Assembly (NCBI RefSeq): GCF_019218265.1
Contig: NZ_JAHUZE010000004.1
Span: 164,001-228,000, forward strand
From: Maritimibacter dapengensis
GTDB taxonomy: Bacteria > Pseudomonadota > Alphaproteobacteria > Rhodobacterales > Rhodobacteraceae
Length of the DNA stretch: 64,000 bases
Direction of reading: 5' to 3'
Shown: one piece after another, positions 58,383-64,000 of the stretch
Position numbering within the stretch: the stretch's first letter is position 1
Layout: every line of letters starts with the position of its first letter
Translations under genes and position numbers: made by a program
The notes under the pieces: model-generated
What the model was told of the DNA's origin: nothing
What the model saw: the letters and a program-made list of their open reading frames with translations, nothing else
The model's database searches: none

Positions 58383-59221
58383 CCCGGGCGCGCCACCATC
58401 TGCCACGCGGCGCGTTTGCCGGGGGATCGCTCGACCGCGTCGATCAACTCGACCAGCCGGTCTTCCGTTCCGAACCGGGCGAACACTTCGCGCATGTCCA
58501 GAAGTGTGCGGATCATGTCGTCATCGGTGATCCCGTCCAGCCGTGCAGCGTCGAGCGTCTCGGCCTCCAGCACCTCCACGCAGCCGAAGATCAGCGCGTC
58601 GTCCGTCGCGTGGCCAACCGGCTCGAACACCGCGCCAAGCCGCGCCATATGCACCGCGACCCACGGCTCCCGCCAATGCAGCGCGCCGCGTTGAACCACG
58701 ACCGATCCGGGACGCAAGGCGGGGTAGAACACCCGTGCGATCTCGTCGGTCGTCTCCGTCGATTTGGTCGCGTCGATGAACAACACCTCGATGGCCGCCT
58801 CGCGGTCCCAGGTCGCGTCTTTTAATTCCCCCGCATGGAGCATGATCGCGTCCCCCCACGGGGCCAACAAATCGGTCGCCACGCCTCGCGAGTCCTCTCC
58901 CTCGAACGGCGGCACGCCCTTTGAATAAAGGAATTGCGCCTTGTGCGCGTCCGATATTGCGAACCTGTCGAACGCATGGAAGCGCAGCGTCTTGCCCGCA
59001 CCCCGCGCGCCTTCGGCCATCCGCGCCACCGGCCCACCGACGAAAGATCCGATGTCCACCAGCGCACCCCAGCCCGACGCCCACTCTGCCCCCAGCCAAT
59101 GGCAAAGGAGCTGCTCTTCATGGGCCAGCATCGTCGGCACGCCCGCCGCCGCCCCGAGCCGTCCGGGTCCACCCGCGAGCCACGGCCCCTCCTCGAATAT
59201 GGCGAAATCCGTCGATGTCAT
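58379..59221 (-). CDS. Conserved hypothetical protein, methyltransferase-like fold
   Basis: A 280-residue protein. GWGALVDIGSFVGGPVARM looks like a Rossmann SAM motif I, and LRFHAFDRFAISDAHKAQF like motif II. EVLFIDATKSTETTDEI and SVVVQRGALHW follow in the place of motifs III and IV, a layout seen in TylF-like and class I methyltransferases. The sugar- or protein-specific part is not identifiable. I cannot name the substrate. The ATG at 59221 precedes TSTDFAIF. It lies 94 bp from tRNA-Trp on the opposite strand. Confidence 0.65.
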   Translation of the reverse strand: MTSTDFAIFEEGPWLAGGPGRLGAAAGVPTMLAHEEQLLCHWLGAEWASGWGALVDIGSFVGGPVARMAEGARGAGKTLRFHAFDRFAISDAHKAQFLYSKGVPPFEGEDSRGVATDLLAPWGDAIMLHAGELKDATWDREAAIEVLFIDATKSTETTDEIARVFYPALRPGSVVVQRGALHWREPWVAVHMARLGAVFEPVGHATDDALIFGCVEVLEAETLDAARLDGITDDDMIRTLLDMREVFARFGTEDRLVELIDAVERSPGKRAAWQMVARPG

Positions 59222-59315
59222 TGGCAAGCAGGTAGCACGCACCAACCTGCCGGAAAAGCTTGGCGAAAACCCCTTGAAAGCCACCCACCTTTGGCGTATC
59301 TCCTGCGCCGGTCCT

Positions 59316-59391
59316 AGGGGTATAGCTCAGCTGGTAGAGCGACGGTCTCCAAAACCGTAGGTCGCGGGTTCGAACCCTGCTGCCCCTGCCA
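59316..59391 (+). tRNA. tRNA-Trp (CCA)
   Basis: A 76-nt cloverleaf. The acceptor AGGGGTA (59316-59322) pairs with TGCCCCT (59381-59387), followed by discriminator G and an encoded CCA (59389-59391). The D-arm is GCTCAGCTGGTAGAGC. The anticodon stem ACGGT/ACCGT frames CTCCAAA with anticodon CCA (59349-59351). The T-arm GCGGGTTCGAACCCTGC is canonical. In related genomes secE-nusG follow directly; here a large gene intervenes. Confidence 0.97.
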
Positions 59392-59533
59392 ATTTCCCAC
59401 CAGATCGACAGCACGAACCGCGCCTCCTGCGACACGGTGGCACGCCGTTCCCCGCAAATATCCACTCATTGCCCCAATCATGCCGGATTTGGGCGTTCAA
59501 TTTAGGCAAAACAAACCTGTGACGGGTCGTGTG

Positions 59534-62053
59534 ATGCGCCTAATAATCCTGCTTTTTACGCTTCCCTGGTGGCTCTATTTTCCAATGGCGGCCGGTATTT
59601 TCTATATCGGCGACCTCGCATTCGACCAACAGGTCGACCGGCAGGCCAGATACACCGAGGCGCTTGCCCTGGGCATTCCCGAACTTGTGGATCTCAGCGA
59701 ATATTCTGCGACGTCACATCGCAATCCGGCCTTCGAAGTCAACGTGAACGGCTGGATCAACACCGACTACAACTACAACCTGATCCAGCGCACGAACGGC
59801 GTGAAAACCTCAGAGCGGCACATGTATGTGCTTTTTGGCGAGGGCGACGGACGCGACAGCAGGATCGTGAAGGCAGCGATGCTTCTGACCCCCCAGGAGA
59901 AAGACACCTTCATCAATCGAATGGACGAGTTCGTTTCGGGTTCCCGAAACGGCGACCACACGTTTCGCTTCAACGGCTTCGCCTACGATACCGCGTCCAT
60001 GAGCAGCATGGCCAACGAAGCGCTCGCGGAACAGGGCCTGACCAAGGGGGACGAATTCTTCTTCCTCGAGCCGTTTCTCAACGGACGCGAAGCGGCGCTG
60101 GCGCCGGTGGAAGATGGACCCGAGAACACGCGCCGGACCGCGCGTCTTCTGGCCGCTCTCGCGTTCCTTTATGGCATCGCACGAAAGGTCCTGAAGTCCA
60201 GCCCGAAACGTGCGACCGCCTCAGAGCCTGACCCGATGGAGGCAACCCGGTCTTATGCGCCCAAAGCCCCCGGCGGCGCCAACAAGGCGTATGACTACGA
60301 TTACGCCTTCGCCGCCAAACAGCGCGACGTGGGCCTGTCACAGAATGTCACGCCCGACAGCCCGCTGGGACGTATCGCCATGCGCAACGCTCAGGCCCAG
60401 GCGCACGCGGAGCCGACCGCGCCCGAGCGGTTCGAGGCCGACACCTCCTCCCAATTCCTGTCGATGCGCGGCGAGTATGTCGAAACGCGCAAGCGGGGAG
60501 GCCCGCCGATCCGGCTCTTGGTTCTGGGCGTGATTGCCTGTGGCCTGTTCCTGCCGGCGGTGAAGGTCCTTGATCTGGAACTTGGCCTCAACACCGCGCC
60601 CACGGCCAACACCACGCAAGCGCCCATCGTGACCGAAGTGGCGAACGATCCCGCGCCCGACGGCGCCCCGATTGTCGAAAACGTGACGAACGATCCTGCT
60701 CTTGCAGCCGCGCCGGACGCCGCCACTCCCGTCGAGAGCGCGACAGCCGATAATCCGGTTGTCGAAACCTCCGGGGCAGGGGCCGAGTCCATCTTCGACA
60801 AGGTCACCGGGTTTTTCTCCCCCTTCCTCATCTTCGTAATCATCGCGGCGCTCTTCATCATGAAAGCCCGCCGTGACGCGACCGCTGCACAGAGAAAGCC
60901 CGCGGCCCGTGCACCCCTGACCTTCGCGCCCGATCCGGCCGAGGCGGAAGCGCAGCGCAAGGCCCGTGCGGCAACCCAGCCGGCCCTGCTTCATCCACAT
61001 GACGCAGCGGCCAAACGACTCGTCGAAGAAAGCTGGACCGGGTTCATCCGCTCGGCCAAACGCAGCGCCATCGCCTATGGTGTGATCGGGGGCGGTGGTT
61101 TCGGCGTCTCGGTCCTGCTTGCATCGACCGGCGACGAGGTCTTCGCCGGCATCGTCAACATGTTTTCGACCGTCGGGCTTTTCCTCGCCACGCCAGTCGT
61201 GGGCATCGTCCTGCTCGTAAAATATCTGAAATACCGCGCGGCGGCGAAATCCGTTGGAACCGACATCATCGAACCTTCGGTCGGCCCGGCCCGCATCCCG
61301 GATGCGATACCCTCCATCGCGGCTTCTTCCGAGGCCGATTTCGAGCCGCAAACGCCGGTCGACGAAGAAGTGCCGTCGGCAAAGGTCGGCTTCGGCACAC
61401 GTGTCGCACGTATGTTGGTCCTGCTCGCGTTCCTCGCGATCACCGGCCTCCTCGTCGCGCATCGCTTCCAGTTTGCCGAACATCCGCTTGTTGCGGATCG
61501 GCCTTTCGCCTTTCTGTTCGATGGCGAAGCCCTTGCCGCGCAACTCGGCATTTCGCAACTTGCCCTCTACGGCGGCGCAATCGCGGCCTTCGTCGTTCTG
61601 GGGCTGATCTTCGCTCGGTTGGCCAATGCCAAGGCGACCCCCCGACAATCTGAATCTGCTCGAACATCGCCGATGGCCGTCATGGCAATCGTCGCAGCCC
61701 TCGGTGTCCTCGGTTTCCTTGGATGGGAGTTCATGACCGCGAATGAAATCATGCCCTATCCGAGCGTCGGCGGTATCGCCGGGGCGCTCATCGGCGGAGC
61801 CTGGGGGGTGCGCCGGTTCAATGCGCGCAAAGCTGCGCAAACCGAGGTCACACATACCGGCCCCACCGCGATCCCGACCACGGCCAAGCCAGCGACCAAG
61901 GTGAGCGACACGCTTCAGGGCTCGCGCGCATGGGTGCGTCAGACCGCGCGCACCGCACCCGCGTCCGCGCGGCACGTCACCGTGAACCCACGCAAGAAAA
62001 TGCGCGTCGACCCGTTCGAGAAGCTGGCGATGGAAGCACGCGGGCAGTTGTGA
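59534..62053 (+). CDS. Large multi-span membrane protein of unknown function
   Basis: An 839-residue protein I do not recognise. It opens MRLIILLFTLPWWLYFPM (span 1). A soluble domain of about 180 residues follows (NVNGWINTDYNYNLIQR, FLEPFLNGREAAL). Then come a hinge, a span VLGVIACGLFLPAVKVL, a Pro/Ala/Asp linker with a repeated NDPA unit (TEVANDPAPDGAP / ENVTNDPALAAAP), spans FLIFVIIAALFIM and GIVNMFSTVGLFLATPVVG, and four more hydrophobic spans near the C-terminus. Eight to ten spans in all. The tail is basic. An earlier ATG (59480) is possible, but 59534 begins the membrane segment. It lies between tRNA-Trp and secE. Confidence 0.7.
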   Translation: MRLIILLFTLPWWLYFPMAAGIFYIGDLAFDQQVDRQARYTEALALGIPELVDLSEYSATSHRNPAFEVNVNGWINTDYNYNLIQRTNGVKTSERHMYVLFGEGDGRDSRIVKAAMLLTPQEKDTFINRMDEFVSGSRNGDHTFRFNGFAYDTASMSSMANEALAEQGLTKGDEFFFLEPFLNGREAALAPVEDGPENTRRTARLLAALAFLYGIARKVLKSSPKRATASEPDPMEATRSYAPKAPGGANKAYDYDYAFAAKQRDVGLSQNVTPDSPLGRIAMRNAQAQAHAEPTAPERFEADTSSQFLSMRGEYVETRKRGGPPIRLLVLGVIACGLFLPAVKVLDLELGLNTAPTANTTQAPIVTEVANDPAPDGAPIVENVTNDPALAAAPDAATPVESATADNPVVETSGAGAESIFDKVTGFFSPFLIFVIIAALFIMKARRDATAAQRKPAARAPLTFAPDPAEAEAQRKARAATQPALLHPHDAAAKRLVEESWTGFIRSAKRSAIAYGVIGGGGFGVSVLLASTGDEVFAGIVNMFSTVGLFLATPVVGIVLLVKYLKYRAAAKSVGTDIIEPSVGPARIPDAIPSIAASSEADFEPQTPVDEEVPSAKVGFGTRVARMLVLLAFLAITGLLVAHRFQFAEHPLVADRPFAFLFDGEALAAQLGISQLALYGGAIAAFVVLGLIFARLANAKATPRQSESARTSPMAVMAIVAALGVLGFLGWEFMTANEIMPYPSVGGIAGALIGGAWGVRRFNARKAAQTEVTHTGPTAIPTTAKPATKVSDTLQGSRAWVRQTARTAPASARHVTVNPRKKMRVDPFEKLAMEARGQL

Positions 62054-62130
62054 CCGGCGATTTGGCCGTCATGACTTGAAAACCCGTCCGTCTTGGCGTA
62101 TCTGCCCGCTGTTCGACAAAGGCTCAGATC

Positions 62131-62328
62131 ATGGCAAAGACCAACCCGCTCCAGTTCATTCAGCAAGTCCGCTCGGAAGTGTCCAAGGTCGTTTGGCCCG
62201 GACGCCGGGAAGTGATCCTGACGACAGGCATGGTGCTGGCGCTCGCCATTCTGGTTGCGATTTTCTTTTCGCTCGTCGACTGGGGCATTCGCTCGGGCTT
62301 GACGGCCGTCCTGGAACTCTTCGGTTAA
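62131..62328 (+). CDS. secE: Preprotein translocase subunit SecE
   Basis: A 65-residue single-span SecE. QFIQQVRSEVSKVVWPGRRE is the conserved amphipathic part with the WPGRRE motif, followed by the span MVLALAILVAIFFSLVDWGI. SecE stabilises SecY in the inner-membrane translocon. It lies 77 nt behind the large membrane protein gene and precedes nusG. Confidence 0.96.
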   Translation: MAKTNPLQFIQQVRSEVSKVVWPGRREVILTTGMVLALAILVAIFFSLVDWGIRSGLTAVLELFG

Positions 62329-62395
62329 TCTCACCCGCGACGCGCTGTCAAGGCAGGTGCGCGTCCCGGTAGAACCTTCCGTATGCGTATCTTTG

Positions 62396-62435
62396 CCATA
62401 CGCTTTCCATACGTGTTCCATACGTAATACATACG
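62396..62435. repeat. Four CATACG motifs at 11-bp spacing
   Basis: CCATACG occurs at 62396-62402, 62407-62413 and 62418-62424, and ACATACG at 62429-62435, each start exactly 11 bp from the last. Inverted copies lie just before (CGTATG at 62380-62385, GCGTAT at 62385-62390). It lies in the secE-nusG spacer. Confidence 0.7.
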
Positions 62436-62485
62436 TGGAATTTCTCCCGTCCCACCCATTGGTGCCCTAGGCTTGAAAAACCTTC

Positions 62486-62552
62486 CACGCGGGGGTAAGT
62501 GAAGCGCCATTCCCCCAGGCGTGCACCGATTCGAGTTGCACGCCGGTTTTTT
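62486..62552 (+). promoter_or_regulatory. Candidate attenuator upstream of nusG
   Basis: A terminator stem GGCGTGCA (62518-62525) / TGCACGCC (62537-62544) is followed by GG and six T (62547-62552). An upstream arm CACGCGGGGG (62486-62495) can instead pair with CCCCC (62512-62516) plus GCGTG (62519-62523), which would cover five bases of the terminator's 5' arm. The two folds exclude each other. The nusG start codon is 62 nt downstream. Confidence 0.6.
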
Positions 62553-62613
62553 ATCTCCGGGGCAAAAGTTGAAAAAGGTCGCGCTGGCGGCCCGTTGGAA
62601 CAGGAAAGATACG

Positions 62614-63147
62614 ATGGCCAAACGGTGGTATTCCGTGAGCGTGCTCTCGAACTTCGAGAAGAAGATCGCCGAGCAGATCAAGACTGCCGTGGAAGAGGCG
62701 GGTCTGGAAGAACAGATCGACGAAGTCCTTGTTCCGACTGAAGAAGTTATCGAAGTCCGCCGCGGCAAGAAGGTCACGACCGAGCGTCGCTTCATGCCGG
62801 GCTATGTCCTCGTTCACATGGAAATGTCCGACGAAGGCTACCACCTCGTGAACGGCATCAACCGCGTCACCGGGTTCCTTGGCCCGCAAGGCCGCCCGAT
62901 GCCGATGCGCGATGCCGAGGTCGAGGCGATCCTTGGCCGCGTCGAAGAAGGCGTCGAAGCGCCCCGCACGCTCATCACCTTCGAGATCGGCGAAAAGGTC
63001 AACGTCACCGACGGCCCGTTCGAAGGCTTCGACGGCATGGTCGAAGGCGTCGACGAAGACAACCAACGCCTCAAGGTTTCGGTGTCGATCTTCGGTCGCG
63101 CCACGCCGGTCGAACTGGAATACACGCAGGTATCAAAACAGGCGTAA
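62614..63147 (+). CDS. nusG: Transcription termination/antitermination factor NusG
   Basis: A 177-residue elongation factor. The NGN domain starts MAKRWYSVSVLSNFEKKIAE and contains RRFMPGYVLVHMEM. The KOW part has FEIGEKVNVTDGPFEGFDG and RLKVSVSIFGRATPVEL. It binds RNA polymerase and couples it to Rho or the ribosome. The start is set by the family's MAKRWYS opening, with AGGAAAGATACG upstream. A terminator-like hairpin precedes the gene, which is unusual and may mean attenuation or a separate nusG promoter. Confidence 0.97.
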   Translation: MAKRWYSVSVLSNFEKKIAEQIKTAVEEAGLEEQIDEVLVPTEEVIEVRRGKKVTTERRFMPGYVLVHMEMSDEGYHLVNGINRVTGFLGPQGRPMPMRDAEVEAILGRVEEGVEAPRTLITFEIGEKVNVTDGPFEGFDGMVEGVDEDNQRLKVSVSIFGRATPVELEYTQVSKQA

Positions 63148-63170
63148 GTTTCTGATATTGTTACATGAAG

Positions 63171-63194
63171 GCGCCGCGATTTCGCGGCGCTTTT
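63171..63194 (+). terminator. Rho-independent terminator after nusG
   Basis: GCGCCGCG (63171-63178) pairs with CGCGGCGC (63183-63190) across ATTT, followed by TTTT. It ends the nusG transcript before the convergent YdeI-like gene. Confidence 0.85.
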
Positions 63195-63233
63195 CGTTTC
63201 GGGGTTCCGCTCATCTTCGAGCAGACCGTGCGT

Positions 63234-63857
63234 TCAGCGTTCCATAGCGCCTTTGCCTGCAAGGATTTTCGGACGAAATTTCTCGATCCGGGCAAAGCGG
63301 GTTTCGGGTTTCTTGGCCTGGTTCAGGTTGAACGCATAGCTCTTCTGCCGACCCGGTGTGAGGTCATAAAAAGCTTCCGCAAGTTCAGGGTCACCGTCCA
63401 GCGCCTCGATCAACTCGTCGGGCATTTCGACCACCGTCTCGAGTTTCGGCGGTTTCGTCCCACGCTCGGCATGGTCCATCAATTCGGCCAGATACGCCCG
63501 GATGGTCTCTTCCATCCGCGCCGGGCCGTCGTTGTCCGTGAAGTAGAGCACGTTGGAGATCCGGCTGTTCGGACCGCCCGGTTTCAACACGCCTTCGGGG
63601 TCTTTCAACAGACTGCCGTTCAGGAACGTGAACCGGAAATCCTCGCGAAACGCACCCATGAGCGCGATGTTTCGGTCGGCATGCATATAGCAGGGATGCG
63701 CCCATTTGACGTGTTCTGACAGCCCCATATCGAGGCAGATCTCGCGGAGCTTGTTCTGCCCCCCGGTCCAGAGTTGGATCGAACAATCAGGCGTGTCGAA
63801 CCGGTCGCAGCGCCCGCAGCCGCGCGTGAAATAATCCTCGATGTCGGTGATCATCAT
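63234..63857 (-). CDS. YdeI/OmpD-associated family protein
   Basis: A 207-residue protein: TDIEDYFTRGCGRCDRFDTPDC near the start (cysteine motif RGCGRCDRF), SEHVKWAHPCYMHADRNIALM, which matches the DUF1801/YdeI fold, and a C-terminal YdeI part ELAEAFYDLTPGRQKSYAF with the LTPGRQKSY mark. The ATGATG start at 63857 follows GAGGAACAAGGC; the frame is open further upstream but lacks family resemblance there. In-fold relatives (YdhG/YdeI) have no clear role. It converges with nusG. Confidence 0.85.
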   Translation of the reverse strand: MMITDIEDYFTRGCGRCDRFDTPDCSIQLWTGGQNKLREICLDMGLSEHVKWAHPCYMHADRNIALMGAFREDFRFTFLNGSLLKDPEGVLKPGGPNSRISNVLYFTDNDGPARMEETIRAYLAELMDHAERGTKPPKLETVVEMPDELIEALDGDPELAEAFYDLTPGRQKSYAFNLNQAKKPETRFARIEKFRPKILAGKGAMER

Positions 63858-64000
63858 GCCTTGTTCCTCGAAACCCGTATCCCGGACCCTACGCCCGGCG
63901 GGGATTTGGTTCAAACGAATCCCTTGCCATGCTGTCTCCAAGGGTCTAGAAGCCGCGCCACGCAGGGCAGCCGCGAGGTATGCCCTGTTATCCATTGTGG
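63858..64000. other. Window end, no gene recognised
   Basis: 143 bp upstream of the YdeI-like gene. The minus-strand frame is open, but no typical start or family pattern is visible. It may contain the promoter of that gene or the edge of another gene outside the window. Confidence 0.3.

Follow-up and report, generated by a model that had tools for sequence, protein, structure and literature searches.

The DNA analysed here is a 64,000-nt stretch of the Maritimibacter dapengensis genome (contig NZ_JAHUZE010000004.1 of assembly GCF_019218265.1), hereafter called the window. Near its end the genes secE and nusG are separated by a gap of 285 nt, in which the stretch 62473-62562 is the predicted promoter and 5' leader of nusG (Table 1). 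This leader holds a terminator-type hairpin (P2) with a GANTC site in its loop, a U-tract and a short outer helix (P1). A scan of window positions 59000-64000 against Rfam 15 brought a single tRNA to gathering score and left the leader without a family, Esr41 scoring 18.3 bits over the leader (gathering score 102); with no match at gathering score, a known Rfam family is ruled out as the identity of the leader. A repeated element is ruled out as well: a piece of 152 leader bases occurs once in the genome of the window, and ten loci weakly matched by the covariance model described below appear, when judged by eye and without annotation, to be ordinary terminators or coding sequence.

Upstream of the nusG promoter, positions 62396-62437 contain three overlapping 20-nt copies of a CCATACGT-type repeat, 11 nt apart. 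Since the copies are spaced by roughly one helical turn, a DNA-binding protein may recognise them. Another locus of the same genus, L166, has a similar stretch rich in CATACG/CATATG. Immediately 3' of nusG lies a G+C-rich hairpin (63168-63196) that ends in a T-rich tail, for which reason the gene looks monocistronic in the window. The Rfam models rli61 and ncS54 overlap this downstream hairpin at scores far under gathering. nusG is followed by a reverse-strand ORF (63234-63995), and an rplK-like match starts 946 nt past nusG. The corresponding distance is 1274-1435 nt in four relatives (L002, L004, L005 and L006) and only about 70-190 nt in many other genera. Several genomes also show a second, distant NusG-like match of about 22-34% identity (e.g. 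G002:C51, G003:C6 and G007:C3), possibly a NusG paralog.

Table 1. Features of the secE-nusG region (window positions)
Feature	Position	Strand	Basis or remark
secE (upstream neighbour)	62131-62328	+	ORF list; tblastn
Predicted -35 hexamer of the nusG promoter, TTGAAA	62473-62478	+	TTG-N20-TA conservation
-10 hexamer TAAGTG (predicted; weak match to TATAAT)	62496-62501	+	same conservation; 17-nt spacer
Probable transcription start (+1), A62509	62509	+	inferred from base frequency after the -10 hexamer
P1 helix, 5' strand (4 bp in the window)	62513-62516	+	fold of 62509-62613; tests on relatives
P2 stem, 5' arm, GGCGTGCA	62518-62525	+	perfect 8-bp stem; folding, covariation
P2 loop, 11 nt	62526-62536	+	read from the letters
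GATTC (GANTC, CcrM motif) in CGATTCG (62527-62533), fits YGAKTCK	62528-62532	.	+20 to +24
P2 stem, 3' arm, TGCACGCC	62537-62544	+	perfect 8-bp stem; folding, covariation
U-tract T6, predicted termination zone	62547-62552	+	T-run conservation after P2; GG between stem and T6
P1 helix, 3' strand	62559-62562	+	fold of 62509-62613; tests on relatives
nusG	62614-63147	+	ORF list

Regions upstream of nusG were compared at 109 distinct loci, namely the window, loci L002-L030 and the best 80 of 546 confirmed relatives (L003 and L032 are one sequence); by name, these best 80 are nearly all Rhodobacteraceae or roseobacters. Seven loci (L015, L016, L025, L029, L044, L050 and L059) were left out of the tests on P1 and on the competing fold discussed below because the hairpin call of the script was wrong or P2 was not found, although P2 is present by eye in L015, L016 and L050. 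L017 was also omitted from all sets of 101 loci (second P1 scoring, promoter and T-run counts, downstream promoter). L015 is the one locus of the 109 for which the script returned no promoter.

Most likely, nusG has its own promoter upstream of the hairpin. In a joint script search for both elements, the pattern TTGNNN-N(16-18)-TANNNN was found upstream of the chosen hairpin at 108 of 109 loci, and the spacer between the hexamers measures 17 nt in 105 of these 108, as it does in the window. Of the 101 loci whose hairpin core is clean, 99 have TTG-N20-TA (1.5% of shuffled copies), and the hairpin starts 16-21 nt past the -10 hexamer at 91 of 101. It is because this pattern is conserved upstream, while a promoter-like pair lies downstream of the hairpin at just two of 101 loci (shuffles: 4%), that the nusG promoter is placed before the hairpin. 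A is the commonest base at the seventh and eighth positions after the -10 hexamer (102 loci), which makes A62509 the probable start. A simple consensus scan lists no promoter here because it demands 9/12 matches, of which TTGAAA/TAAGTG falls short. At the sequence level, the promoter thus precedes the terminator and the terminator the gene, without a further promoter in between, which is the order expected of an attenuator.

The terminator that a sequence-only reading of the window had placed between secE and nusG (8-bp stem, GG, six T) is present as described, with the G+C-rich hairpin and following U-tract of an attenuator. For the isolated 44-nt RNA 62509-62552 the folding energy is -16.9 kcal/mol (z -3.8; 1/200 shuffles as good), whereas the wider stretch 62460-62613, on which a folding check had been proposed, barely beats its shuffles (z -1.6), and the entire 105-nt leader (62509-62613) does no better than shuffles in the window (z -0.4). 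A simple terminator scan listed nothing in the gap, since it permits loops of 3-8 nt and P2 has one of 11. The hairpin recurs among the relatives. In an alignment of 39 loci, hand-chosen for a clear hairpin, 96.4% of the cells of P2 are paired and four of ten pairs have changed on both sides, values that none of 500 shuffles reached in either case. Slid versions of P2 pair at 22-59% in the same loci; some of them reach 2-3 pairs with two-sided change, and the case for P2 therefore rests on pairing together with the covariation score. Whereas 53 of 1720 background 12-mers contain a T-run of at least four, the 12 nt after P2 do so at 92 of 101 loci. Judged from these sequences, a conserved terminator-type hairpin appears to stand at a place that nusG transcripts must cross, and premature termination is a good reading of it. 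The nine loci of 101 whose T-run is shorter than four nevertheless retain P2, which argues that termination is not the sole function of P2.

P1 is formed by the bases just 5' of P2, which pair with bases behind the U-tract or at its end. Cognate strands pair better than permuted ones (mean -10.95 vs -9.22, sd 0.25, z -6.9; 20000 permutations, n=102), and a second scoring by contiguous helices agrees (n=101: 7.58 vs 6.18, sd 0.24, none of 300 permutations exceeding 6.98). While such permutation controls ignore relatedness, a weaker test on 51 tree-independent pairs of loci respects it and gave 29 better, 11 worse and 11 ties (p 0.006). P1 keeps no fixed register across loci and has only 4 bp in the window. 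Since it does not overlap P2, it is no antiterminator; from its position, it would form only once polymerase has passed the U-tract and would close the 5' end of the read-through mRNA. P1, together with the retention of P2 where the T-run is short, suggests that the hairpin perhaps also serves the mRNA, maybe as a 5' protector.

GANTC occurs in the leader (about +1 to +52) at 96 of 108 loci, where 0.047 would be expected per locus, and 19 times in 19449 positions of the rest of the gap. It lies nearly always in the P2 loop, the 96 including one locus with the site outside the hairpin (L029) and two in which it overlaps the 3' arm (L012 and L068). Its middle base is T in 77, A in 12, G in 7 and C in none, and a tree of nusG DNA requires at least 17 changes of this base and at least 10 gains or losses of the site. 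An A follows the site in 5/12 cases with middle A and in 0/77 with middle T (Fisher 1.9e-5), CGAATCA being TGATTCG on the opposite strand. On either strand, YGAKTCK, described in extracts of PMC7987155 as the extended GcrA motif, fits 93 of the 96 leader sites and 5 of the 19 background sites, the expectation for a random GANTC being 25%; the same extracts report no YGAKTCK preference for Brevundimonas. A free middle base and flips of orientation are the behaviour of a double-stranded DNA site and are hard to square with a reading as single-stranded loop alone; on these grounds RNA-loop recognition was ruled out as the sole reason for GANTC.

The proteins that would act on such a site seem to be encoded in most of these genomes. 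GcrA (PF07750) was found in 11/11 genomes tested, and the genome of the window matches PF07750 at E 6.8e-48 and PF18755 at E 1.1e-18. PF18755 is the RAMA domain, which we take to be the mark of CcrM; in the control set it matches Caulobacter only, and 57 of 61 family genomes carry it. Site and domain were tabulated in 57 genomes (the 61 minus three without nusG and minus G077, with L012 of G025 counted as having the site). Loop GANTC is absent from all three near-complete genomes (>=90%) without RAMA, which are not independent by descent (G021, G036 and G090); with RAMA, the hairpin carries GANTC in 44 of 50, leaving six without (Fisher p 0.004). When incomplete genomes are included, the figures are 1/4 without and 45/53 with RAMA (p 0.02). 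Because of the shared descent of the three, this association carries little weight. G021 (L029) has GANTC sites outside the hairpin. The leader L191 (G085) shows no typical P2; beside hexamers that resemble a promoter it has a GACTC, nearer to where GcrA sites usually lie. All in all, 12 of 108 loci lack GANTC, and ten of these keep the hairpin by eye.

A covariance model (R1) of P2 only, built from the 39 loci, matches beside nusG in 21 of 29 further nusG-bearing family genomes; one of these 21 (G062) repeats a locus of the model alignment (L086). GANTC was read in the hairpin of 23 of 28 further family leaders (the 29 minus G077), or of 21 of 26, from further genera, once G062 and G078, which repeat L086 and L099, are removed. 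Hairpin and GANTC are both present in L166, of the genus of the window, and in the deep family members L161 and L163, while L162 has neither. In L164 and L165, two further deep members, the leader has a hairpin with matching flanks and a long U-tract, and GANTC is lacking. As their genomes (G015 and G024) nonetheless encode GcrA and RAMA, the RNA part may predate the methylation motif. By eye, no such leader unit was seen in 19 genomes of other alphaproteobacterial families, in which the secE-nusG gap measures 0-59 nt in 17 and 108 and 380 nt in two (start codons approximate); an element common to all alphaproteobacteria is thereby ruled out. In a class-wide search R1 matched 26 of 192 genomes, and the match loci fetched contained no nusG except for the leader matches of family members G000, G086 and G092. 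Within the genomes looked at, the unit would seem to be confined to Rhodobacteraceae.

The promoter pattern, P2 with its U-tract, the covariation of P1, the conservation of GANTC and the confinement to one family are all seen at the level of sequence. On balance we hold it probable that they form one promoter and 5' leader unit of nusG, particular to Rhodobacteraceae, in which P2 as a leaky promoter-proximal terminator limits nusG, P1 closes the 5' end and the GANTC loop may tie output to replication. Polymerase would start at about A62509, within the secE-nusG gap, and transcribe about 9 nt of 5' tail before reaching P2 and the U-tract. A good part of the transcripts would end near 62552 as a 44-nt RNA, and the remainder would read through to become nusG mRNA. 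Once polymerase has left the U-tract behind, the 5'-most bases of the transcript could pair just behind that tract (P1) and so close the 5' end. The net effect would be a promoter-proximal throttle on nusG, in design like the leaky UpsM terminator before the dcw cluster. Termination must be partial or relieved, because NusG is presumably needed in every cell, and a leaky terminator is favoured since UpsM, from the same family, shows such a design with read-through estimated at about 1 in 100 (extracts of PMC5089854). The loop DNA is a GANTC site of the type that CcrM methylates and GcrA reads; GcrA may act there, and output may shift when the replication fork passes. A methylation-timed attenuator, in which initiation or read-through differs according to whether the first 25 bp are fully methylated, hemimethylated or bound by GcrA, is a more speculative extension, to which we give perhaps one chance among several. 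If true, each fork passage would set anew how much of this universal elongation factor a cell of the Rhodobacteraceae contains.

Alternatively, P1 and the P2 stem could sit at the 5' end of nusG mRNA mainly to block decay, with the U-tract serving as a bulge or protein site and causing little termination. P1 begins a few bases from the probable start and covaries, and the hairpin persists both where the T-run is short and at most loci without GANTC. Such a protector, however, has no need of the T-run that follows P2 at nine loci in ten, and P1 is short in the window; we consider this explanation unlikely.

On another explanation, selection acts on GANTC as a DNA site that times nusG transcription, either because GcrA binds it or because it responds to CcrM methylation, and the hairpin mainly ends secE transcripts. 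The frequency of the site, its free middle base and its orientation-symmetric motif speak for this, as do the wide occurrence of GcrA and RAMA and the three near-complete genomes that lack RAMA and loop GANTC alike. The site, on the other hand, is downstream of the probable start; for Caulobacter, extracts of PMC4287350 place GANTC sites no more than 50 bp upstream of the start and frequently in the spacer from -35 to -10. Also, several lineages keep the hairpin without GANTC, six near-complete RAMA genomes lack the site, and the open-licence GcrA/CcrM papers that were searched do not mention nusG. This scenario is improbable.

The sequence-only reading had proposed feedback of NusG on its own gene through an antiterminator, in which CACGC plus GGGGG (62486-62495) pair with CCCCC plus GCGTG (within 62512-62523) and the two folds exclude each other. 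This complementarity is present in the letters, yet in the best fold of 62460-62560 the terminator stays intact while GGGGG is also paired with CCCCC (-36.0 for this read-through RNA, -33.2 when the competing fold is forced). The pairing is not conserved within species beyond what is found between species: the mean over 102 loci is -11.97 vs -11.90 (sd 0.22, z -0.3; 7467/20000 permutations as good), and the 51 tree-independent pairs gave 25 for, 20 against and 6 ties (p 0.55). It is strong in the window (-17.2) and in L002 (-21.5) and is no family trait; the covariation that had been suggested as a check thus holds for the terminator stem and fails for the competing stem. Furthermore, the upstream arm sits in the conserved promoter spacer, between -35 and -10, so that RNA started at this promoter lacks it and only read-through from secE could contain it. 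Because of this position, the better fold and the missing within-species excess, the competing fold is rejected as a conserved device. No antiterminator fold that excludes the terminator was found, the fold tested being this CACGC+GGGGG pairing.

As for NusG itself, direct evidence of feedback was not found. Extracts of PMC8060035 state that NusG of B. subtilis needs Y77/N81/T82 for pausing at TTNTTT. A TTNTTT motif is present within 16 nt after P2 at 57 of 101 loci, and the T6 of the window fits; NusG of the window, however, reads HLVNGI where E. coli has HLVRSV, with H/G/I at the three B. subtilis positions, and feedback of the B. subtilis type is unlikely because these pause residues are missing. 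In favour of feedback, a terminator precedes nusG, and greA/GraL shows leader-terminator autoregulation of elongation-factor genes to be possible (extracts of PMC6829880); we regard a feedback attenuator with that antiterminator as very improbable. The sequence-only observation is thus partly confirmed and its interpretation partly supported. Least credible is an ordinary secE terminator that overlaps the nusG promoter region by chance and has no regulatory role: similar hairpins, judged by eye, end many genes in these genomes, but with the promoter upstream of the hairpin nusG transcripts must cross it, and P1 and GANTC would be left unexplained.

Our comparison of sequences suggests that a leader of the mostly marine Rhodobacteraceae throttles the core transcription factor NusG within the first 45 bases, possibly coupled to replication. 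With a covarying leader throughout a family and a tightly placed GANTC in it, one can ask directly whether the promoter of nusG is where bacteria throttle this factor, and whether methylation by CcrM has an effect within the first transcribed bases. The open-licence literature that was searched contains no description of a nusG leader or nusG regulator in alphaproteobacteria. Among known systems, the NusG-dependent terminators of B. subtilis are alike in having a hairpin and a U-rich tail that can hold TTNTTT, and differ in depending on Y77/N81/T82, here H/G/I (extracts of PMC8060035). The greA leader RNA of E. coli, GraL, likewise has an intrinsic terminator before the gene of a transcription factor; the factor and the organism are different, cis autoregulation is the feature of GraL, and greA regulation is unaffected by any Nus factor, according to extracts of PMC6829880. 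The GcrA/CcrM promoters of Caulobacter share GANTC within YGAKTCK near a sigma70-type promoter and the GcrA and CcrM-type domains (extracts of PMC7987155 and PMC4287350); there the site is upstream of the start, whereas that of nusG lies downstream of it, inside a terminator loop. Closest in design is UpsM, which extracts of PMC5089854 describe as a strong, leaky intrinsic terminator and sRNA in the 5' leader of the mraZ/dcw cell-division cluster, exclusive to Rhodobacteraceae. Both would be leaky leader terminators before core genes in this family, with leakiness at nusG a supposition from sequence; UpsM, however, measures 206 nt and precedes mraZ, whereas termination before nusG would come after about 44 nt, and those extracts mention neither a GANTC loop nor a P1-like closing helix. 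The nusG leader would join UpsM as a second example of how, in Rhodobacteraceae, a core gene can have a strong terminator in its leader.
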